A DNA stretch of 64,000 nt from Prochlorococcus marinus XMU1404 (lineage in GTDB: Bacteria > Cyanobacteriota > Cyanobacteriia > PCC-6307 > Cyanobiaceae). Of this stretch, positions 1,088-27,764 are shown in pieces (position 1 is the stretch's first letter; the number at the start of each line of letters is the position of its first letter). Where the stretch lies: assembly GCF_017696175.1 (NCBI RefSeq), contig NZ_JAAORE010000003.1, positions 62,001-126,000 of the forward strand, given 5' to 3'. Below the pieces are notes generated by a model. The model searched no databases. It was not told the origin of the DNA and saw nothing but the letters and a program-made list of their open reading frames with translations. The position numbers were made by a program, and so were the translations under genes.

Positions 1088-4014
1088 GCTTAAAATCTGA
1101 AAACTCTAAAAAACCAATTTTACTTTTAGTCGATGGTCATTCACTTGCTTTTAGAAGCTTCTATGCATTTAGCAAAGGGATTGATGGAGGTTTAACAACC
1201 AAAGAGGGATTCCCAACAAGTGTGACTTATGGATTTCTAAAAAGCCTTCTTGATAATTGCAAAAATATTAGTCCTGAGGGTGTTTGTATTACTTTTGATA
1301 CCGAAAAACCTACTTTCAGACATGAATTAGATCCAAATTATAAGGCTAATAGAGATGTAGCACCAGATGTTTTTTTTCAGGATATTGAACAACTAGAAAT
1401 AATTTTAGAAGAAAGCCTTAATTTACCAATTTACAAGTCTCCTGGTTACGAAGCAGATGATCTCTTAGGCACAATTGCAAATGATGCTTCTTCTAAAGGA
1501 TGGTGCGTAAATATTCTTTCTGGGGATCGGGACTTATTTCAATTAGTAGATGATCAAAAAGACATTTATGTACTTTATATGGGTGGTGGTCCATATGCAA
1601 AAAGTGGTAATCCGACTCTTATTAATGAAAATGGAGTAAAAGAAAAATTAGGGGTTGCGCCAGAAAGAGTAGTTGATCTTAAAGCTCTAACTGGTGATAG
1701 TTCTGATAATATTCCTGGTATTAAAGGGGTAGGTCCAAAAACTGCAATTAATCTACTAAAAGAAAACGATACACTTGATGGGATTTATCAGGCTTTGGAC
1801 AAGATTCAGCAGAACAATGATAAAAAACATAAAGGATTCATCAAAGGTTCGGTTATAGAAAAGCTCAGAAACGATAAGCATAATGCTTTTCTTTCCAGGG
1901 ATTTAGCAAAAATAAATACTGAAGTGCCTTTGATATTAAGTGATGGTTATGAATTAAAAAATATAAATCAAGAACTTCTCTCAGAGTCACTGCAAAAACT
2001 TGAATTATCAACACTACTTCGGCAAATTGATATTTTCAATTCAACTTTTAGTAAAGGTGGTTTTGACAAAAATAACGTGGCTAAAGAGGAGGAGAAAGAT
2101 CCAAAGGTCTCTAGTAAAAGTGAGTTAGAAAATAGTGAAAATAAAATCCCTAAAATCAAAGTAACTGTTGTAAATAATTTTGAATTACTTTATAAATTAA
2201 TTCAAAGATTAGAAAAGACCAATGAGATAGTTTCTTTAGATACAGAGACTAATAGTTTAAATCCAATCGATGCGGAACTTGTTGGGATAGGATTATGTCT
2301 TGGAGAAGAAACTGATGATTTATTTTATATACCTCTTGGTCATCAAACAAAAAAAGAGACCCCCAATCAATTATCGATTGAAGATGTTTTCTCAAAACTA
2401 AGAACTTGGATAGAAGATCCAAAAAAAGAAAAAGCACTCCAAAATTCTAAATTTGACAGGCAAATATTTTTAAATCACGGACTTGATCTTAAAGGCGTAA
2501 CCTTTGACACCTTGTTAGCAGACTATCTTCTAAATAATCAGGAGAAGCATGGGTTGAGTGAAATTAGTTTTAGATTATTTGGATTTAAGCCTCCTTCATT
2601 TAAGGAAACAGTTGGGAAAAATAAAGACTTTTCTTTTGTTGATATTGATGAAGCTAGTATTTACTGCGGTTATGATGTATTTCTAACTTTTAAGATTGTC
2701 AAAATTTTTAAAGAAAGATTTTCAACAGAAAAAAATGAATTAATCAAATTGTTCGAAGAAATCGAGCTTCCCTTAGAGCCGGTATTGTCTCAAATGGAAA
2801 TGAATGGAATAACCATCGATATCCCTTATTTAGATAAACTCTCAAGAGAACTAAAAAGTACCTTAGAAGATATTGAAAGTAAAGTTTATGAATTAGCAAA
2901 GGAGACTTTTAATCTATCTTCACCAAAACAACTTGGTGAGATCTTGTTTGAAAAATTAAATTTGGATAAGAAAAAATCACGGAAAACAAAAACGGGATGG
3001 AGTACAGATGCAGTAGTTCTTGAAAGATTAGTCGACGAACATGAAATAATCCAACATTTAATAAAACACAGAACTCTTAGCAAATTACTTAGCACCTATA
3101 TTGATGCTCTTCCAAATCTTATAAACGAAAAGACAGGAAGAGTTCATACAAACTTTAATCAAGCTGCTACAGCGACTGGGAGACTGAGTAGTAGCAATCC
3201 TAATCTTCAAAATATCCCGGTCAGGACTGAATTTAGTAGGAGAATCAGAAAAGCATTCTTGCCTGAAAAAAATTGGAAACTTTTATCAGCTGATTATTCT
3301 CAGATCGAATTAAGAATACTTGCTCACTTAGCGGATGAAGAAATACTAATTAATGCGTTTCATAAAAATGATGACATTCATTCTTTGACTGCAAGATTAA
3401 TTTTCGAGAAAGAAGAAATATCATCTGACGAAAGGAGAGTTGGGAAAACAATAAATTTTGGAGTTATCTATGGTATGGGTATAAAAAAGTTTGCCCGTTC
3501 AACAGGAGTAAGTACTTCAGAGGCAAAAGAATTCCTAATAAAATACAAAGAAAGATATTCAAAAATTTTCAAATTTCTTGAACTCCAAGAAAGGCTCGCC
3601 TTATCAAAAGGTTATGTAAAAACAATTTTTGGTCGAAAAAGAGAATTTAAGTTTGATAAAAATGGACTTGGAAGATTAATAGGGAAAGATCCTTACGAAA
3701 TTGACTTGCAATCTGCAAGAAGGGCTGGCATGGAAGCACAGTCATTAAGAGCCGCAGCTAATGCACCAATTCAGGGTTCAAGTGCAGACATTATTAAGAT
3801 TGCAATGGTTCAACTAAATAAGAAATTCATAGAAATGAATATTCCCGCAAAAATGCTTTTGCAAGTACATGATGAATTATTGTTTGAAGTTGAACCAGAT
3901 TCTTTGGAAATTACAACGAAATTAGTGAAGAAGACTATGGAAGATTGTGTAAAATTAAATGTGCCCCTTTTAGTTGATATTGGTATTGGAGATAATTGGA
4001 TGGAGACAAAATAA
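1084..4014 (+). CDS. polA: DNA polymerase I
   Basis: Gap-filling and repair polymerase that removes Okazaki primers. Three domains are visible: an N-terminal 5' nuclease (starting DGHSLAFRSFYAF), a 3'-5' exonuclease, and a family-A polymerase. The exonuclease keeps LDTETN near residue 386, KFD in motif II and a Y-x3-D motif III, so proofreading looks intact. The polymerase has motif A DYSQIELR (about 737), the O-helix KTINFGVIYG (about 785) and motif C VHDELLFEV (about 927). The 976-residue length is usual. The ATG start overlaps the preceding adaptor gene's stop, suggesting translational coupling. Confidence 0.98.
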   Translation: MSLKSENSKKPILLLVDGHSLAFRSFYAFSKGIDGGLTTKEGFPTSVTYGFLKSLLDNCKNISPEGVCITFDTEKPTFRHELDPNYKANRDVAPDVFFQDIEQLEIILEESLNLPIYKSPGYEADDLLGTIANDASSKGWCVNILSGDRDLFQLVDDQKDIYVLYMGGGPYAKSGNPTLINENGVKEKLGVAPERVVDLKALTGDSSDNIPGIKGVGPKTAINLLKENDTLDGIYQALDKIQQNNDKKHKGFIKGSVIEKLRNDKHNAFLSRDLAKINTEVPLILSDGYELKNINQELLSESLQKLELSTLLRQIDIFNSTFSKGGFDKNNVAKEEEKDPKVSSKSELENSENKIPKIKVTVVNNFELLYKLIQRLEKTNEIVSLDTETNSLNPIDAELVGIGLCLGEETDDLFYIPLGHQTKKETPNQLSIEDVFSKLRTWIEDPKKEKALQNSKFDRQIFLNHGLDLKGVTFDTLLADYLLNNQEKHGLSEISFRLFGFKPPSFKETVGKNKDFSFVDIDEASIYCGYDVFLTFKIVKIFKERFSTEKNELIKLFEEIELPLEPVLSQMEMNGITIDIPYLDKLSRELKSTLEDIESKVYELAKETFNLSSPKQLGEILFEKLNLDKKKSRKTKTGWSTDAVVLERLVDEHEIIQHLIKHRTLSKLLSTYIDALPNLINEKTGRVHTNFNQAATATGRLSSSNPNLQNIPVRTEFSRRIRKAFLPEKNWKLLSADYSQIELRILAHLADEEILINAFHKNDDIHSLTARLIFEKEEISSDERRVGKTINFGVIYGMGIKKFARSTGVSTSEAKEFLIKYKERYSKIFKFLELQERLALSKGYVKTIFGRKREFKFDKNGLGRLIGKDPYEIDLQSARRAGMEAQSLRAAANAPIQGSSADIIKIAMVQLNKKFIEMNIPAKMLLQVHDELLFEVEPDSLEITTKLVKKTMEDCVKLNVPLLVDIGIGDNWMETK

Positions 4015-6822: not shown

Positions 6823-7167
6823 GTGAATATTAAAAAGCATCTTCTACTATGCGCAACCCCCACAAAACAGAAATGCTTTAAAGGCAATGAAGGTGAAAAA
6901 ACATGGGAATGTCTGAAAAAGACTTTAAAAAAATTTGAGAATGATCCCTCTACTAAAAACGTTCATATATTAAGATCAAAAGCTGACTGTTTAAGGATAT
7001 GTAAGAATGGCCCAATTCTTCTTATCTGGCCTGACGGTATTTGGTACGAAAAAGTTTCTCCAGAAAAAATTTCAGAAATTTTTACCTCACATATTATTAA
7101 CGGTAAGCCAGTAGAAAAATGGATTTTTAAAAAAACACCATTTTTAAATAGTCCTAGATACTCATAA
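6823..7167 (+). CDS. Thioredoxin-fold [2Fe-2S] ferredoxin-like protein
   Basis: Small protein (114 residues) with Cys10, Cys18, Cys56 and Cys60. The spacing (C-x7-C, then C-x3-C) fits the thioredoxin-like [2Fe-2S] ferredoxin family (NuoE/shethna type). An aromatic WPDGIWY segment follows, as is common in stand-alone cyanobacterial members. The redox partner is unknown. The start is GTG two bases after dxr, so the two genes are likely cotranscribed. Its 3' end overlaps the convergent hydrolase gene by 14 bases. Confidence 0.8.
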   Translation: MNIKKHLLLCATPTKQKCFKGNEGEKTWECLKKTLKKFENDPSTKNVHILRSKADCLRICKNGPILLIWPDGIWYEKVSPEKISEIFTSHIINGKPVEKWIFKKTPFLNSPRYS

Positions 7168-8239
7168 ACCAGTTCTTTACGACTTCATCTGACCAGCAGC
7201 CATTAATCGAGTGGAAACCATTGTGACCTCCTTTTTCAGTTATAAAAATAGTAAATTTATCAATAGATTCTTTTCTTAAATTTAAAGTATCCTTATATGG
7301 AACCCAAGGATCATCCTTGGCATGAATAAAAAGCATTAGAGGTAATTTTTTTATTGAGTTTTGGATTCTAGATATTGGCGAAGCTTTAGCATAATAATCT
7401 TCTAAAGAATTAAATCCCCAACAAGGAGCTGTAAATTTTTGATCAAATTCCCTTATACTTTTTAAATTTCTAATTTTTTTTCTTAATTTCTCGTTATTAA
7501 GAATTTTGCCTTCATCATTATATCCGTCCCATAACTGATTTTTTAAGCGGTGAAGTAACCATTTTTGGTAGACATAATTTCTAGGTTTCTCAATACAGAG
7601 ACTGCATGATGATAAATCTAAAGGACTACTTACGCAGGCTAGGCCGTATAAAAGTTTTTCTCTATTATTTTCATCGTAATCCAAGCAGGCATTTAAAAGA
7701 ATTGTTCCACCTAAAGATAATCCAACTCCGTAAATTGGAAGATTGTTCATTTTAATGAGATCTTTGAACTCTAACTTAATTAGTTTTTTAAAATATTTAA
7801 TTGCTGAAATAACATCACTCGAGCATCTGGCACAATAATTTCCCCTAGCTAAATATCTCGCAGGCCCAGATCCTCTTAGATTTAATTTGAGAACTCCAAA
7901 ACCATTATTTACTAATTTCCTAGAGATTCTTCTTAAACCAAATCGTTTAGTTGAGCCCCCTAACCCATGTGTAACGATAACAAAACCTTTAAGAGAGCTT
8001 AAGTTTTTAGGCAACTCTAAGAATCCCAGGAGATAATCGCATTCAAATTTTTCAGATAGTATTTTATTAATTGGAAAGAATATTTTTTTATTTTTTTTTG
8101 ATTTACCAAAATCAATAACAAAAGTATCTCTCAAAGTTTGTAAGTCGCCACCTATCCAAGGTAAGACTTCCCGAAATGGCTTATTTTTTAAGTAATCTGA
8201 AAAACTTGAAGATATACTATTATTTCTCCCCAACTCCAA
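7154..8239 (-). CDS. Alpha/beta hydrolase, YheT-like
   Basis: Predicted cytosolic esterase/hydrolase of the YheT (EMB8-like) group. The oxyanion region is VTHGLGGSTKRFG, the nucleophile elbow is GVGLSLGG, the acid is in KDDPWVPY and the histidine in EKGGHNGF. At 361 residues it is a little longer than the usual 330-340. The substrate is unknown. Its start lies inside the last 20 bases of pntB on the same strand, so it may be translated from the transhydrogenase message. It overlaps the convergent ferredoxin-like gene at its own 3' end. Confidence 0.85.
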   Translation of the reverse strand: MELGRNNSISSSFSDYLKNKPFREVLPWIGGDLQTLRDTFVIDFGKSKKNKKIFFPINKILSEKFECDYLLGFLELPKNLSSLKGFVIVTHGLGGSTKRFGLRRISRKLVNNGFGVLKLNLRGSGPARYLARGNYCARCSSDVISAIKYFKKLIKLEFKDLIKMNNLPIYGVGLSLGGTILLNACLDYDENNREKLLYGLACVSSPLDLSSCSLCIEKPRNYVYQKWLLHRLKNQLWDGYNDEGKILNNEKLRKKIRNLKSIREFDQKFTAPCWGFNSLEDYYAKASPISRIQNSIKKLPLMLFIHAKDDPWVPYKDTLNLRKESIDKFTIFITEKGGHNGFHSINGCWSDEVVKNWFMSI

Positions 8240-21533: not shown

Positions 21534-23063
21534 ATGGAGTCAGAAGCAAAATTACATGAAATAAAGAAACCAATAATGATTTTGGGCACTTCAAGTGGAG
21601 CAGGAAAATCGTTAACGGTTACTGCTATCTGCAGGATTCTTAAAAATTCAGGAGAAGAGCCAATCCCTTTTAAAGGACAAAATATGAGTAACAACGCTTG
21701 GGTTGATTGGAACGGAGGCGAAATGGCGTATTCTCAGGCTCTTCAAGCCTTTGCATGTGGAATTCCTCCCTCTTCAGATATGAATCCTATCCTATTAAAA
21801 CCACAAGGAAATTCAACAAGTGAGGTGATTCACCATGGCAAAAGTATAGGAATCACAACTGCTAAAAATTACTACAAAGATTGGTTTATTCCTGGCTGGG
21901 AAGTAATCAAAAAAAGTTTAAAGTCTATTTACAAACGAAATCCAAATTGTCGTTTAATTATTGAAGGAGCTGGTAGTCCAGTAGAGATGAATTTAATTCA
22001 TAGAGACCTTACTAATTTAAGAATTGCAAAGCATTTGAATGCAAATTGTATTTTAGTTACTGATATTGAGAGGGGAGGCGTATTTGCACAAATAATCGGA
22101 ACCCTTGAATTAATGAAACCTGAAGAGAAAAAACTTATTAAGGGAATTATTATAAATAGATTCAGAGGAGACCTTTCATTATTTTCAGAAGGGAAGAAAT
22201 GGATAGAAAGTAAAACTCAAATTCCTGTTATTGGAATTATTCCATGGCTAAATGATACATTTCCTCCAGAAGATTCACTAGATTTATTAGAAAAAAAATT
22301 AAAATACACTAATCCTGAGATAAAAGTAGGCATTATAAAATTGCCATCTATAAGCAACTTTTCAGATTTTGATCCTTTAGAAAATGAAAAAACAATATTA
22401 ATTGAATGGGTAAGAGAATCCCAAAACTTAAAAAAGTATGATTTTATAATTATTCCTGGAAGTAAACAAACTATTAAAGATCAAATATTTCTTGAAGAAT
22501 GTGGTTTGTCTCGGGATATAAAAGAATATTCAAAAAACAACGGAAATATTATTGGAATTTGTGGAGGTTTACAAATGTTGGGCACAACACTTAAAGATCC
22601 TTATTTGAAAGAGGGTTCCCAAAATCATGCTGAACAAACAATAAAAGGCATTGGATTATTACCATTAAAAACTACTTTCTTTAAAAAGAAATTAACACGT
22701 CAAATTAATTCTGAATCTCTATGGCCATGCCAATCCAAAATAAATGGATTTGAAATTCATAATGGCAAAACTGAATTGGATAATATGCAAAGCTCATTAA
22801 AGATTAAACCTATCTTCAAAGACTTAAATCTAGGATGGTACCTTGAAAATAAAGAAGGTGGGATTATTGCAGGTACATACATTCATGGGATCTTTGAGAA
22901 TGATAACTGGAGAGATCAATATATCAATTTAATTAGGAAGAGCAAAGATTTACCAATAATAAAAACAAAATCCATATCATATAAAAAGAAAAGAGAATCA
23001 ATTATTGATAATCTTGCGAAGGAATTTGAAAAACATTTAAATTTCACATCATTATTAAGTTGA
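21534..23063 (+). CDS. cobQ: Cobyric acid synthase
   Basis: Glutamine-dependent amidation of the side chains of adenosyl-cobyrinic acid a,c-diamide in cobalamin synthesis. The N-terminal synthetase domain has GTSSGAGKS (P-loop-like) and the conserved KGQNMSNNAWV. The C-terminal glutaminase domain has GICGGLQMLG with the nucleophile Cys and HGIFEN with the His. The 509-residue length is standard. The 3' end overlaps a ferredoxin gene (TTGA), so both are likely made together. Confidence 0.97.
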   Translation: MESEAKLHEIKKPIMILGTSSGAGKSLTVTAICRILKNSGEEPIPFKGQNMSNNAWVDWNGGEMAYSQALQAFACGIPPSSDMNPILLKPQGNSTSEVIHHGKSIGITTAKNYYKDWFIPGWEVIKKSLKSIYKRNPNCRLIIEGAGSPVEMNLIHRDLTNLRIAKHLNANCILVTDIERGGVFAQIIGTLELMKPEEKKLIKGIIINRFRGDLSLFSEGKKWIESKTQIPVIGIIPWLNDTFPPEDSLDLLEKKLKYTNPEIKVGIIKLPSISNFSDFDPLENEKTILIEWVRESQNLKKYDFIIIPGSKQTIKDQIFLEECGLSRDIKEYSKNNGNIIGICGGLQMLGTTLKDPYLKEGSQNHAEQTIKGIGLLPLKTTFFKKKLTRQINSESLWPCQSKINGFEIHNGKTELDNMQSSLKIKPIFKDLNLGWYLENKEGGIIAGTYIHGIFENDNWRDQYINLIRKSKDLPIIKTKSISYKKKRESIIDNLAKEFEKHLNFTSLLS

Positions 23064-23311
23064 AAAAAACAAAGATTACAATTAGATGGCCAAATAATAA
23101 GGAAACCTATGCTTCAGAGGGAGATAATTGGTTCTCTACTGCAGAAAAAGCGGGTTTAGAAATTCCGACAGGCTGTCTGACGGGAAGTTGTGGAGCTTGC
23201 GAGATAGATGTAAATGGTCAAACGGTAAGGGCTTGTGTGAGTGGAATTAAAAATAATAAAAAATGTTTGTTAAACGTCTCTTTAATTACTGACCCCTTTT
23301 GGGAGAAATAA
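23060..23311 (+). CDS. Plant-type [2Fe-2S] ferredoxin
   Basis: An 83-residue ferredoxin with Cys39, Cys44, Cys47 and Cys59 (C-x4-C-x2-C-x11-C), fewer residues before the final ligand than in photosynthetic PetF. The sequence CLTGSCGACEIDVNG is typical of the group. The TTG start overlaps the cobQ stop as TTGA, suggesting translational reinitiation. Context hints that it supplies electrons to a cobalamin-related reaction such as Co(II) reduction, but this is only inference from position. Confidence 0.85.
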   Translation: MKKTKITIRWPNNKETYASEGDNWFSTAEKAGLEIPTGCLTGSCGACEIDVNGQTVRACVSGIKNNKKCLLNVSLITDPFWEK

Positions 23312-23867: not shown

Positions 23868-23939
23868 ATAAGATCACCTTTCCAAAAGATTATCAAAAAC
23901 TTAGAGTCTAAAAGTTGAATTGAGAATTTATATTCCCAG

Positions 23940-24092
23940 ATGAGATCGATGGGGAATGCTAAATACTTTATAGTCCCACGACACACCACACAACAAATAT
24001 TTTTGTTTAAAGATGCTTCTGAAATCCTTCAAATGATGATTCATTTCAGGAATATTTTAGTTTCTCTTTTTGAAACAAGTCCTAGTTATTGA
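23940..24092 (+). CDS. Possible 50-residue ORF in a 307-base gap
   Basis: The gap 23868-24174 has no clear gene. One open frame, starting MRSMGNAKYFIVPRH and ending LVSLFETSPSY, gives 50 residues. It has no Shine-Dalgarno, no signal peptide and no familiar motif. Codon use is not obviously unlike a gene, but a chance ORF is quite possible. I see no RNA gene or terminator in the rest of the gap. Confidence 0.25.
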   Translation: MRSMGNAKYFIVPRHTTQQIFLFKDASEILQMMIHFRNILVSLFETSPSY

Positions 24093-24174
24093 GAATATCA
24101 GTTAAAGTTCTATAAAAAGATATAAAGAAATGAATAATTAATCATATATTTTAAAAATTGTCTTTGTAGTAAAC

Positions 24175-24786
24175 TCAACATCTTAAAATTCTTATTTTTG
24201 CCTTCTCCTTCTTAAAAATTTTTGTATCCACTATACCTGTTTCACTATTAAAACAACCTAAGACACCTTTCTCATCATCCATAAAAGGAATTGATTGTAT
24301 ATTGAAAACCTCATCCTCGCTATACATCCTTACCCAATAGTTGCGATTTTTAGATTCCCAACTAGTAGCAGTTGAATTATTGCCTAATTTTCTACAGTTT
24401 CTATTTCTATCATTTCTTTTCTGTTTTTGCGTTAAATAACACCCTGACACCTTTGTAAATCTTTGCAAATCTCCTGCTGACTTTGGATAAATTGAATCAG
24501 ACATATAAAGAATTTTAGCGGCATAAAGATATGACCTTATGTTTAATCTTTCATGTAATAACCTAAATTCTTTTGAAACATCTGCGGAGTCTCTTAATGA
24601 ATCAAAGCCAATCTTGGAATAATTCTTAATCCTATCAATAGATTTTCCTACTGGAATTTCAAGTATTGGTAGTGCAATTAATAAGATTAAACTTGAAATT
24701 GTAAGAACGAAAATAATTTCTACTAAGGAAAAACCAGATTGATTTTTATTAAATAATCTTTTTTTAATAGGTAAATAATTTCTCAT
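24175..24786 (-). CDS. Type IV pilin-like / pseudopilin protein
   Basis: The 203 residues have a prepilin leader and methylation site: a basic start, then G18 followed by FSLVEIIFVLTISSLILLIALP, with Glu23 as residue 5 of the mature protein. A long hydrophobic N-terminal helix and a variable C-terminal head with several cysteines follow. It would be cut by a prepilin peptidase and assembled into a pilus- or pseudopilus-like fibre. No pilus machinery lies nearby. It sits next to the tRNA-Ser repeat patch and may be accessory cargo. Confidence 0.8.
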   Translation of the reverse strand: MRNYLPIKKRLFNKNQSGFSLVEIIFVLTISSLILLIALPILEIPVGKSIDRIKNYSKIGFDSLRDSADVSKEFRLLHERLNIRSYLYAAKILYMSDSIYPKSAGDLQRFTKVSGCYLTQKQKRNDRNRNCRKLGNNSTATSWESKNRNYWVRMYSEDEVFNIQSIPFMDDEKGVLGCFNSETGIVDTKIFKKEKAKIRILRC

Positions 24787-24865
24787 TAATTAAATATATT
24801 TAAAGATTTATGCCTCATTTCTTGCCATATAAGAATAAAATACGACAATCATAAAAATATCGCAA

Positions 24866-24881
24866 CGGAGAGGGTGGAATT
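24866..24881. repeat. Truncated tRNA-Ser 3' end, copy 1 (att-like)
   Basis: CGGAGAGGGTGGAATT matches the tRNA-Ser 3' end (25824-25839) at 15 of 16 positions. It is the copy furthest from the tRNA. Confidence 0.75.
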
Positions 24882-24943
24882 AACTTTCAACATCCATAGG
24901 CAAAACTGGACTAAATGGGACTTATTTTTAAGCGATAAAGTAC

Positions 24944-24978
24944 ATACCCACCAACACATTAAAAATACCCACCAACAC
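24944..24978. repeat. Direct repeat ATACCCACCAACAC, two copies
   Basis: Two exact 14-base copies (24944-24957 and 24965-24978), 21 bases apart start to start. The core CCACCAACA recurs at 25647 and 25659 in another segment of the patch. Confidence 0.8.
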
Positions 24979-25091
24979 TCATAAAAATAAACACTAATTA
25001 TACAGAAATTGATATTTCTTAGAACTCTCCTGTATCACTGCAATTTAAATTAGAACTCAAAAAATTAAGAGTGCTAATTTTCCTATTAAAC

Positions 25092-25102
25092 CGGAGAGGG
25101 TG
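25092..25102. repeat. Truncated tRNA-Ser 3' end, copy 2 (att-like)
   Basis: CGGAGAGGGTG is identical to the tRNA 3' terminal bases. The C before it (25091) is also shared with the intact copy. Confidence 0.7.
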
Positions 25103-25160
25103 TATTTCTATTTGACTCTTTGTGGCACTAATTGGCACAAAAACTAAATCGTTTTAGTAA

Positions 25161-25245
25161 TTTTACATGTGTTTTTACATGTGTTTTTACATGTGTTTTT
25201 TACATGTGTTTATTAGTTGTTTTACATGTTTTTTTACATGTTTTT
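25161..25245. repeat. Tandem TTTTTACATGTG repeat
   Basis: Six ACATG units start at 25165, 25177, 25189, 25202, 25224 and 25236, mostly 12-13 bases apart and separated by T runs. The first four carry GTG after ACAT. ACATGT is itself palindromic. The spacers are too short and uniform for a CRISPR array. Confidence 0.9.
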
Positions 25246-25302
25246 AACTTTCTTTCCTCTATTGTTTTTTAATGCTAGATATAGGGAAATTTTTATACCC
25301 TC

Positions 25303-25455
25303 ATGGACAAACAAACCCTTATCAAACTTGCTCAACCTGCTGCTACAGCATTACTTGCACTCTCCATATTAAGCTTTCCTTTCATTGTAAAGGCTTCTGG
25401 AAGCATGACTGTCTACCAAGGTGATTATTCTTGGAAGATTAGTGGTTGCGATTAG
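25303..25455 (+). CDS. Small putative secreted peptide
   Basis: A 50-residue ORF with a convincing signal peptide: a charged start (MDKQTLIK), a hydrophobic run (ATALLALSILSFPFIV) and a KA-S cut site. The predicted mature peptide is only about 19 residues, ending ISGCD with a single Cys. It is the only plausible gene between the tRNA-Ser repeats. There is no clear Shine-Dalgarno. I do not recognise a family. Confidence 0.5.
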   Translation: MDKQTLIKLAQPAATALLALSILSFPFIVKASGSMTVYQGDYSWKISGCD

Positions 25456-25563
25456 TGGTGGCATTTTATAGCAAAACATTGCCTAATTATTTGATATTTT
25501 TTTGTTATGAATAAGAAATATCATCTTAAGGCACTTCATGACAAATTAAGTTACCTGAAAAAA

Positions 25564-25574
25564 CGGAGAGGGTG
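25564..25574. repeat. Truncated tRNA-Ser 3' end, copy 3 (att-like)
   Basis: CGGAGAGGGTG is identical to the tRNA-Ser 3' terminal bases, 260 bases from the intact tRNA. Confidence 0.7.
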
Positions 25575-25595
25575 TTAGTTGAGATGATTTCACTA

Positions 25596-25620
25596 GACAC
25601 TCTCAGACACTTACTGACAC
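25596..25620. repeat. 10-bp-phased GACAC pentamers
   Basis: GACAC starts at 25596, 25606 and 25616, exactly ten bases apart. The first lies 32 bases from the start of core copy 3. GGCAC occurs at 25124 and 25134, again at +32 and +42 from core copy 2. GGACT occurs at 24908 and 24918, at +42 and +52 from core copy 1. Left of the tRNA, GACAC lies at 25799 and 25809. Confidence 0.75.
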
Positions 25621-25646
25621 ACATATTTTTCTAAATCGATCAAATT

Positions 25647-25670
25647 CCACCAACATTTCCACCAACATTT
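25647..25670. repeat. Tandem CCACCAACATTT, two copies
   Basis: Two adjacent exact 12-base units, sharing CCACCAACA with the repeats at 24944-24978. They lie 83 and 95 bases from the start of core copy 3. Confidence 0.85.
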
Positions 25671-25823
25671 TCATTCAAAAAGGTCTGACATTGTCTGAAT
25701 TCACCTGACTTTATAAGACACAATATTCAAGAAAAAAATACAATAATTATTGTTGGTGCAGGCAATTATAAAGATTTTGACTCTAACAGAATGCCTCTGA
25801 CACTATTAGACACTAAGAAAAAC

Positions 25824-25909
25824 CGGAGAGGGTGGGATTCGAACCCACGAATAGTTTGCCTATTAAACGATTTCGAGTCGTTCGCTTTCGACCACTCAGC
25901 CACCTCTCC
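25824..25909 (-). tRNA. tRNA-Ser(CGA)
   Basis: An 86-nucleotide class II tRNA with a long variable arm. The acceptor stem GGAGAGG/CCTCTCC is perfect. The anticodon arm AACGA-CTCGAAA-TCGTT gives anticodon CGA (codon UCG). The T arm CGTGGGTTCGAATCCCACC is canonical. CCA is not encoded. Its 3' end faces the repeat patch, and truncated copies of that end recur three times there. Confidence 0.97.
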
Positions 25910-25973: not shown

Positions 25974-26996
25974 TTAATCCCACCCTGCATCTTTCATCAA
26001 TTTTATTGCGAGAGAATTATTTTCCCCAAGGTCTTCTACAGTTACCTTATCAGCAACAAATTCTCCAAAGTTTTTGACAATTGGATTTTGATTAACCTCT
26101 TTTAAAGGATGTTCAAAAGTAGGAGCAGCAAGGCCTTTACTTCCCTTTGGGGATGCCAAATATTCAAGTAGCTTGATAGCTGCATTTTTATTTGTTGCGT
26201 ATTTAGCTACACCACCAGCACTAATATTTAGGTGAGCAGGATTGGGGGTAATAACCGATGTTCGCCTTGCATATAAGGTATCTCTTCTTCCATTTACACC
26301 AGCTAACATTCTTGCTACATAATAATGATTAACAATCCCTACCCCACATTTTTTCTTAGAAACGGCTCTAATTATTGAAATATCACCTGGAAAGAAAGGT
26401 TGGGAAACGTTAGAAATCATTCCATTCAGCCAAGCTTTAGTTCTTGTTTCACCTTTGTTAACTATTTGATTAGCAACTAAAGATTGATTATATGGACTTT
26501 TTCTATTTCTTAAGCATACTTTACCTTTTAAAGATGGATCAGCTAAATCTGTGTAGTCTTTAATCCTGCTTAGATCAACAACTTTTGGATTGGCAACCAT
26601 AACTCTTACTCTTCTCGTTAATGCATACCATTCCTTATTTTTATCTTTTAGTCCAATGGGAACATCATTTTCTAAAGATTTTGATTCTATACTTTGAAGC
26701 AAGCCAGCTTTAGCTGCATTAGTAATTCTTGCTGCATCGACTAGCAAAATTAAATCTGCTTGAGAATTCTTCCCTTCTCTTTTCAATCTCTCAAGTAAAG
26801 ATATTCCTGCAGCTTCGATAAGCCTAACTTTGATTCCTGTTTCTTCTGCGAACTTTTTATAGACACTTCTATCAGTATTGTAATGCCTACCCGAATAAAC
26901 TTTGACTTCTTTTTCTGTTGAATAAATAGGTATATTAAAATTCAATAAAAATGTACATGTTAGCGCTGAGTAAAGTAGTTTTTTTAGATTTTGCAC
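25974..26996 (-). CDS. futA: Ferric iron ABC transporter substrate-binding protein (FutA/IdiA)
   Basis: Periplasmic Fe(III)-binding protein of the Fut system, induced by iron limitation. A signal peptide covers about residues 1-25 (KKLLYSALTCTFLLNFNIPIYS). The mature protein starts VKVYSGRHYNTD, a family hallmark. The tyrosine pair in NHYYVARML probably helps bind iron. At 340 residues it is normal. The start is GTG. The permease and ATPase genes are not nearby. It is divergent from piuC, also iron-linked. Confidence 0.95.
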   Translation of the reverse strand: MQNLKKLLYSALTCTFLLNFNIPIYSTEKEVKVYSGRHYNTDRSVYKKFAEETGIKVRLIEAAGISLLERLKREGKNSQADLILLVDAARITNAAKAGLLQSIESKSLENDVPIGLKDKNKEWYALTRRVRVMVANPKVVDLSRIKDYTDLADPSLKGKVCLRNRKSPYNQSLVANQIVNKGETRTKAWLNGMISNVSQPFFPGDISIIRAVSKKKCGVGIVNHYYVARMLAGVNGRRDTLYARRTSVITPNPAHLNISAGGVAKYATNKNAAIKLLEYLASPKGSKGLAAPTFEHPLKEVNQNPIVKNFGEFVADKVTVEDLGENNSLAIKLMKDAGWD

Positions 26997-27098: not shown

Positions 27099-27764
27099 AT
27101 GAATTATTTAACGCATCAACTATTAAATTCTGAAGAATTAGTAACTCTTAGAAAAGAATTAAGAAAAGAAGAAAGACTCTGGGAAGATGGTAAGCAAACT
27201 GCGGGTAAGCATGCCGCCAAAGTAAAAAATAATTTACAACTTAAAAGAGATTCAGATTTATCAAAAAAATGTTCGGGAATAATCATAAAAAAGATTCTTA
27301 GTAATGATTTAATTAAGAGCTTCGCTTTACCTAAAAGGATTCATGGAACAATCTTCTCAAAATCTACCAGTGGCATGCAATATGGAAGACATATTGATAA
27401 TGCTTATATGTCTTCTGGTAGAGCAGACTTATCTTTTACTATTTTTTTAAATTGCAAAGATAACTATGATGGAGGTGCATTATCAATTGAGAGTTTCAAT
27501 TCAGAAAAAAAATTTAAACTGGATGCTGGGGAAATAATAATCTATCCAAGTACATTTTTACATTCAGTAGAAGAAGTTATTAGTGGTGAAAGATTAGTAT
27601 TTATTGGTTGGATTGAGAGCTATGTGAAAAGTATTGAAGAAAGAGAATATTTATTTGATCTAGATGCCGCAGCCAGATCATTACTAAGTAAGTATGGTAG
27701 ATCTGAGGAAGTTGATCTAATCTTTAAATCATATTCAAATCTCTTAAGAAGGTTAGGTGGTTAA
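27099..27764 (+). CDS. piuC: Fe(II)/2-oxoglutarate-dependent PKHD-type hydroxylase (PiuC/YbiX family)
   Basis: Non-haem iron dioxygenase of the PiuC group, often found with iron-uptake genes; its physiological substrate is not settled. The facial triad is visible as His98-x-Asp100 (YGRHIDNAY) and His155 (STFLHSVEEV), with Arg165 for 2-oxoglutarate. The 221-residue length is typical. It is divergent from futA with 102 bases between, so both may answer to iron status. Confidence 0.93.
   Translation: MNYLTHQLLNSEELVTLRKELRKEERLWEDGKQTAGKHAAKVKNNLQLKRDSDLSKKCSGIIIKKILSNDLIKSFALPKRIHGTIFSKSTSGMQYGRHIDNAYMSSGRADLSFTIFLNCKDNYDGGALSIESFNSEKKFKLDAGEIIIYPSTFLHSVEEVISGERLVFIGWIESYVKSIEEREYLFDLDAAARSLLSKYGRSEEVDLIFKSYSNLLRRLGG

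Follow-up and report, generated by a model that had tools for sequence, protein, structure and literature searches.

Stacked attachment-like units at tRNA-Ser(CGA) in Prochlorococcus suggest serial integration of mostly integrase-less elements

The stretch beside tRNA-Ser(CGA) in Prochlorococcus marinus XMU1404 probably consists of stacked attachment sites produced by serial one-sided integration, mostly of units without an integrase that would be served in trans by autonomous elements. Small units would insert one after another at the 3' end of the tRNA gene, each bearing two arms of phased repeats and an 11-bp core that matches the tRNA end exactly, like a lambda- or P4-type attP. The core of a presumably circular unit would recombine with the tRNA end, which would restore the tRNA and push older units away from it, so that distance from the tRNA would reflect the order of insertion. 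The helper integrase would be provided in trans by less common autonomous elements that have matching arms and are located at this tRNA gene or a sister one; action in trans appears most likely because most units carry cargo or nothing, and no integrase, and we infer it as the simplest reading. The observations from which this model is drawn are core copies in a shared orientation, paired ends, phasing and copy-free sites, together with near-identical units between dissimilar flanks and integrase-bearing elements at the same tRNA.

Throughout the window (the whole 64,000-nucleotide stretch analyzed), the first 11 bases of the tRNA 3' end in plus-strand reading, CGGAGAGGGTG, were found exactly at 24866, 25092 and 25564 and, within the intact gene, at 25824, all in identical orientation, which confirms the three partial tRNA 3' ends described by the sequence-only reading. 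The tRNA is on the minus strand and its 3' end therefore faces left. The longer pattern CGGAGAGGGTGGGATT, with up to three mismatches, matched at 24866 (one mismatch), 25092 (three), 25564 (three), 25824 (none) and 52164 (three), compared with a mean of 0.15 matches and a largest value of one in 100 shuffles of the window. In the whole genome (1.67 Mb, three contigs) the exact 11-mer occurs five times, four of them at tRNA-Ser(CGA) and one at C1:375849, and the same pattern read backwards does not occur at all. The fifth copy was followed as a candidate and set aside, as it lies inside an ORF on another contig. The partial copies beside tRNA-Ser(CGA) are real and beyond chance. Two outcomes named beforehand as fatal to the idea of an integration site were a random scatter of partial copies elsewhere in the genome and the lack of any element at this tRNA in relatives; four of the five copies are at this tRNA, and elements were found there in relatives.

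Table 1. Features of the tRNA-Ser(CGA) region and of related recombinase genes. Positions are those of the window unless a locus (L) or contig (C) is named.
Feature	Position	Strand	Basis or detail
Left anchor, cobQ	21534-23063	+	Pfam; 68 of 77 parsed loci
Left anchor, 2Fe-2S ferredoxin-like gene	23060-23311	+	Pfam; 68 of 77 parsed loci
Remainder of variable stretch	23870-24865		
Pilin-like gene with N_methyl motif, within variable stretch	24175-24786	-	Pfam
Unit 1, 226 bp, gene-less	24866-25091	+	Core 24866-24876
Unit 2, family K, 472 bp	25092-25563	+	Core 25092-25102, phased repeats, small peptide gene
GGCAC-type repeats of unit 2, 10-bp-phased	about 25113-25142	+	
ACATG(TG) repeats of unit 2, 12-bp-spaced	25165-25241	+	
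50-aa ORF in unit 2	25303-25455	+	50 codons
Unit 3, family A, 260 bp, gene-less mini-unit	25564-25823	+	Core 25564-25574, right arm, left arm up to tRNA core
Right-arm triple repeat of unit 3, 10-bp-phased (AGACACT, AGACACT, TGACACA)	25595-25621	+	Read from sequence
Two CCACCAACA repeats of unit 3, 12-bp spacing	25647-25667	+	
tRNA-Ser(CGA), putative integration target (attB)	25824-25909	-	ARAGORN and pattern match
11-bp core common to tRNA and partial copies	25824-25834		Inside tRNA-Ser(CGA)
Right anchor, solute-binding protein gene	25974-26996	-	Pfam; 75 of 77 parsed loci
Right anchor, 2OG-Fe(II) oxygenase gene	27099-27764	+	Pfam; 62 of 77 parsed loci
Recombinase-like gene by tRNA-Ser(TGA)	L058:11421-12638		
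Recombinase-like gene by tRNA-Ser(TGA)	L094:1537-2751		
Recombinase-like gene by tRNA-Ser(TGA)	L109: about 1568-2704		
Recombinase-like gene by tRNA-Ser(TGA)	L111: about 6855-7841		
Recombinase-like gene by tRNA-Ser(TGA)	L066:8642-9817		
Resident 389-aa tyrosine recombinase	L001:1426-2595 (own genome, C1:506403-507569)		Beside cobO-like gene; Phage_integrase match at C1:506475

The three copies and the tRNA delimit three units (Table 1), and the conserved genes on the right are presumably futA (solute-binding) and piuC (oxygenase). The pilin-like gene of the variable stretch has a relative, 83% identical, at the same tRNA in L036. The longest ORF of unit 3 is 27 aa (shuffled mean 36), and the unit is 83-84% identical to a mini-unit of L041. 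Its 12-bp-spaced repeats occupy the position where cargo sits in cargo-bearing family A units; CCNCCAACANNNCCNCCAACA has its single occurrence in the whole genome at this position, and the CCNCCAACA pair at 12-bp spacing likewise occurs once in the genome, in this unit. In unit 1 (longest ORF 36 aa, shuffled mean 33) the right arm follows family C by eye, with CCACCAACA at 24948-24956 and 24969-24977, 21 bp apart and not 12; the type of its left arm resembles, again by eye, the outer copies of L012, L023 and L041, and both ends remained ungrouped at the clustering cut-off. The left end of unit 2 had no cluster match, and its first ACATGTG is at unit position 74, as in the integrase-bearing element of L081.

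Unit 2 encodes a peptide that starts MDKETLIKLAQPAAT, with a hydrophobic N-terminus that looks signal-peptide-like by eye, a variable C-terminal part and one invariant Cys. Relatives of 50-60 codons are present in all six family K units examined, the window's included, and the peptide had no match in Pfam or PHROGs; it is possibly a fast-varying secreted peptide moved as a cassette. Within the genus, 18 of 266 genomes encode such a peptide, four of them in two to four copies. The only ORFs of at least 50 codons in the window units are this one, frames overlapping it and one frame running from unit 3 through the tRNA, and no integrase was found in these units by a Pfam Phage_integrase search of the genome or with a profile of 27 recombinases. 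The earlier statement that there are almost no genes between the copies has to be amended for the 472-bp interval with its 50-codon ORF. Similarly, the view of the copies as partial remnants left by elements stands as regards an integration site, but the intervening pieces are mostly two-armed att-like units and not bare scars.

The same site was compared across relatives. When 200 genomes of the genus were searched with the 11-mer, 161 had a match, including 65 of the 66 genomes at least 90% complete, and at least 24 of those 66 have an exact partial core 3' of the tRNA, a count made among fetched loci. Eighty loci, mostly with at least two copies, were fetched from relatives and parsed together with the window (81 in total); since copies were the main reason for their choice, the occupied fraction among them does not estimate prevalence. 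Seventy-seven of the 81 gave tRNA-Ser(CGA), the four without it (L078, L089, L094, L099) being left out, and 54 of the 77 hold 68 core-to-core units of 97-7497 bp: 14 below 300 bp, 11 of 300-1000 bp, 28 of 1-3 kb and 15 of 3 kb or more. Counted as 10-mers in the 77 loci, 68 partial cores are oriented like the tRNA's own core and two are reversed (L012, L091), and 65 of the 68 forward ones are exact 11-mers. L096 (G095) has the tRNA and two partial cores with K-like and E-like right arms, and was neither oriented nor counted because its tRNA end lacks the exact motif. A family A mini-unit query matched 95 of 266 genomes, a figure not used as a prevalence since many weak matches are 20-40-base pieces elsewhere.

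Repeated integration at one site, as proposed from the sequence alone, is well supported by relatives in which the site has no partial copy or has different units, and no loss by excision was observed directly. When the flanks of occupied loci were joined, they matched a single-copy locus across the junction in 30 of 54 cases, with 72-97% identity, although single-copy loci are not all pristine because some keep an old left arm.

The unit ends recur with a common layout. Sequences to the right of one core and to the left of the next recur across genomes in families, whose letters were assigned by eye. In most right ends the core is followed, after 10-20 bases, by three repeats spaced 10 bp apart and then by two repeats 12 bp apart, the latter pair near +83 and +95, or near +70 in families K and M. 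The repeats themselves differ between families, both the 10-bp set (AGACACT, GTCC, GGCAC and others) and the 12-bp set (CCNCCAACA, CCCTRACAC, ACATGTG), whereas spacing varies much less. Across 22 mutually dissimilar right arms, self-identity at lag 10 was 0.430 against 0.258 in shuffled arms (sd 0.017), and distal self-identity at lag 12 was 0.456 against 0.331 (sd 0.018). The test was repeated on new arms because the first regions had been picked after viewing the sequences: eight dissimilar right arms, taken from tRNA-Asn and tRNA-Ser(GCT) elements and examined over almost identical regions, gave 0.445 against 0.270 at lag 10 and 0.402 against 0.288 at lag 12.

Left and right ends are also paired, with exceptions that include units 1 and 2 of the window. 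Of 2133 unit pairs that lack nucleotide similarity in their interiors, 67 have both ends in common at more than 60% identity, compared with a mean of 9.2 and a maximum of 20 in 2000 permutations of the left ends, a statistic that includes protein-level cargo homology and shared ancestry and so is not a clean probability. The clustering of ends used 67 of the 68 units, the 97-bp unit being left out. A clear 12-bp repeat is present in 30 of the 48 units over 600 bp, and its mean best match in the unit's own left arm was 10.9 of 12 positions, as opposed to 9.1 on permutation (maximum 9.9 in 5000); the own left arm gave the best match in 20 of these 30 units and that of another unit a better one in 10. 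As read from sequence, a core with phased repeats on both sides corresponds to the attP of a heterobivalent tyrosine integrase, and the layout of the unit ends agrees with that anticipated for the attP of such an arm-binding enzyme. Two to three stacked partial 3' ends were also seen at tRNA-Ser(GCT) and tRNA-Asn(GTT) in L120, L121 and L126, together with relatives of the L058 integrase, and the right arms there have the same 10-bp and 12-bp spacing.

In most of the units displayed (families A, B, C, F and H, by eye), cargo lies between two sets of 12-bp repeats. The family A mini-units of the window (260 bp) and L041 (281 bp) equal the ends of the L012 and L045 units with the cargo removed at these repeats. 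Units below 300 bp have several end types, and their longest ORFs are within the shuffled range; the least clear gene-less case is L083, with a longest ORF of 66 aa and a shuffled maximum of 68. A hand-picked subset of 16 cargo proteins was searched, of which three had no match; the cargo includes type I restriction systems in L022 and L025, a type III restriction system in L017, a type IIG-like protein in L016 and a PD-T4-1/TmtA-like protein in L014, and the other picks comprise HsdR N-terminal-like, DUF805, 2OG oxygenase and polysaccharide lyase proteins. A seventeenth protein, a YgjP-like metallopeptidase, adjoins the restriction genes in L022.

Several integrase-less units appear to have moved recently between genomes. 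L045, L073 and L074 share a 1919-bp unit at 99.6-99.8% identity; in these loci cobQ is 85-88% identical for the two pairs measured, the left flanks of the unit 60-77% (shuffled control: median 61%, maximum 75%) and the sequence to the right of the tRNA 73-93%. A 1921-bp unit is 99.7% identical between left flanks of 54-62%, and a gene-less unit of 257 bp is 97.3% identical between left flanks of 58-61%, with cobQ at 89%; for a unit of 215 bp the identity is 93.5%, with no cobQ yardstick. The high identity of shared units stops at the cores, except for the tRNA itself. The mini-units of the window and L041 resemble each other no more closely than their flanking genes do, which gives no basis for claiming a recent event in the window. 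Used as exact patterns, the right arms of families A, B and C had no match in IMG/VR. Homologous recombination might also have transferred units between cells.

Candidate helpers were found at the same target. The profile of 27 recombinases, run against six frames of the 68 units at E up to 10, detected a recombinase in one unit, that of L081, and integrases unlike those 27 could be missed by it; no Phage_integrase match within a unit was found in 40 genomes. The L081 integrase has an arm-DNA-binding domain (Arm-DNA-bind_3, PF13356, E 2.7e-13) and a catalytic domain match (Phage_integrase, PF00589, E 3.2e-14), its N-terminus matches PDB 3ju0 (E 1.4e-5), and it scored 124 of 434 bits, below the model cut-off, against PRK09692, which we take to be the P4-type integrase. 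An arm-binding integrase is thus present at the target in the L081 element, the window units being devoid of one. L108 has an integrase 85% identical to that of L081 at the same tRNA, and in L107 and L078 an integrase is beside a Ser core on a stretch without the tRNA. Against IMG/VR proteins, the L081 integrase gave one distant match with 22% identity over part of the query. Phage_integrase matches of 300-359 codons (L048-L055) were rejected as candidates, seven of the eight loci having tRNA-Thr(ggt) and L053 no tRNA, with no Ser core.

The arms may indicate which units each enzyme would serve. By eye, the right-end repeats of L107 are those of family H, and the ACATGTG repeat of L081 and L108 has the same position as in family K, including unit 2 of the window. 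Partners from integrase loci were assigned by eye to H, to K with M, and to E (at tRNA-Ser(TGA) only), and the integrase-bearing loci examined offered none for families A, B, C, F, G, I and J. Of 266 genomes, 23 encode relatives of the L058 integrase, and those fetched stretches that include a tRNA have Ser(CGA), Ser(TGA), Ser(GCT) or Asn; the 3' end of the sister tRNA-Ser(TGA) is nearly identical to that of tRNA-Ser(CGA). Recombinase-like genes of about 390-415 codons were observed 5' of tRNA-Ser(TGA), divergent from it (Table 1), that of L058 having no Pfam match and a weak PHROGs integrase match. L094 and L111 also have second copies of the tRNA-Ser(TGA) 3' part (L094:3024/3923 and L111:8308/8874; about 900 and 570 bp apart), which are longer than the 11-base cores at tRNA-Ser(CGA).

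The integrase-less units could instead be dead deletion remnants, cis-mobilizable or fossil islands that no longer move by themselves, derived from autonomous elements that entered and then lost integrase and cargo between short repeats. Gene-less family A units do equal cargo-bearing ones minus the cargo at the 12-bp repeats, the window mini-unit has no sign of recent transfer, and islands without integration modules at ssrA in Dehalococcoides were so interpreted in the available account by their authors (PMC3146451). However, the 1919-, 1921- and 257-bp integrase-less units are far more alike than cobQ or their flanks, and arms in general remain paired, and we consider this explanation rather unlikely for the units in general. 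Its likelihood and that of serial integration are not to be added up, because both may hold for different units, and those of the window are possibly remnants.

It is improbable that the resident chromosomal recombinase beside the cobO-like gene (Table 1) is the acting enzyme, with the tRNA as a fixed, integron-like platform. No other gene of the window's genome has a Pfam Phage_integrase match, and 94 of 95 good genomes sampled from the family give a match at E ≤ 0.001, a few of these matches being weak and perhaps due to other recombinases; nevertheless, a single arm specificity would not account for many arm families, there is no Ser core or tRNA within the surrounding 20 kb (L065), and elements with another integrase class are found at the same tRNA. 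Chance resemblance to the tRNA 3' end, which might be entertained for copies this short (11 exact bases), is already contradicted by the excess in the window (five against 0.15 expected), the absence of the backwards pattern, the single orientation of 68 of 70 cores and the match of joined flanks to copy-free loci, leaving it practically no credence.

At tRNA-Ser(CGA) in Prochlorococcus, different genes, including whole restriction systems, occupy interchangeable units. Prochlorococcus has a very small genome and few known vehicles of gene transfer. The end grammar makes integrase-less units recognizable, pairable end to end and matchable to a possible helper by sequence alone, and island genes without a visible mover therefore gain a testable one. 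More tentatively, and with the balance slightly against it, the gene-less two-armed att-only units of about 215-295 bp might be mobile themselves, as a counterpart of MITEs, with the arm repeats serving as a barcode for the helper and the 12-bp repeats as the place of cargo gain and loss; tRNA-Ser(CGA) in Prochlorococcus would in that case be a cassette platform with changing helpers.

Stacked partial copies with integrase-less islands are already known. CIMEs, which are mobilized in cis along with a neighbouring element and accrete in tandem at a common att site, are att-flanked units that lack genes for integration or transfer and, as here, are stacked at one gene end (PMC5704250, in the part available); the window units carry no such genes, and relatives' units were screened for integrases only. 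Sites resembling attL and attR, with cores at both ends and arms, are recognizable by sequence and clearest for unit 3. The present units differ from CIMEs, as available text presents them, in being two-armed and as small as 213 bp, with many arm families and apparently recent transfer of some integrase-less units. The ssrA islands of Dehalococcoides likewise have tandem direct repeats of an RNA-gene 3' end, with and without an integration module, but the same partial account gives a serine recombinase and a tmRNA target (PMC3146451) where we find tyrosine integrases, a tRNA and phased arms. In the excerpted description of Methylophilaceae fGI-2, the last 20 bases of tRNA-Lys are repeated in variable number with islands from 330 bp, a similarly additive island of tRNA-end repeats for which that excerpt mentions neither arm architecture nor a helper (PMC10872708).

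Tycheposons are, in the same excerpt, tRNA-bordered, cargo-carrying Prochlorococcus elements of 4-200 kbp with their own tyrosine recombinase (PMC10872708). Seven tRNA genes have been described as their targets. The link to them drawn in the sequence-only reading holds for the organism group, the tRNA border and the targeting of a tRNA, but the window units have no recombinase and, at 226, 472 and 260 bp, are far below that size range; they are not classifiable as tycheposons on present evidence, because almost all units at the site are without an integrase. Integron cassette arrays have palindromic attC sites that fold as single strands and an integrase gene next to the insertion site; here such an adjacent integrase gene is absent, and the only Phage_integrase match of the genome is on another contig. 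A picocyanobacterial integrase family is placed near tRNA-Phe and tRNA-Cys in the accessible text, targets other than tRNA-Ser(CGA) (PMC10187409), and five 36-bp copies of a putative phage attachment site are mentioned for a Prochlorococcus strain in a partly available source (PMC2784084).

In a search of open-licence literature for gene-less or nonautonomous att-only elements and for Prochlorococcus tRNA-Ser islands, no title or abstract had this layout, and the two-armed end grammar, the paired-end families and the gene-less units that look mobile thus appear new relative to the literature searched. The closest functional parallel for the last would be MITEs, units of about 300 nt that have no genes and are mobilized by enzymes encoded elsewhere, according to the available text (PMC11389934). 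MITEs have terminal inverted repeats and depend on a transposase, whereas the units at tRNA-Ser(CGA) would combine a two-armed att site, a tyrosine integrase and one fixed target.
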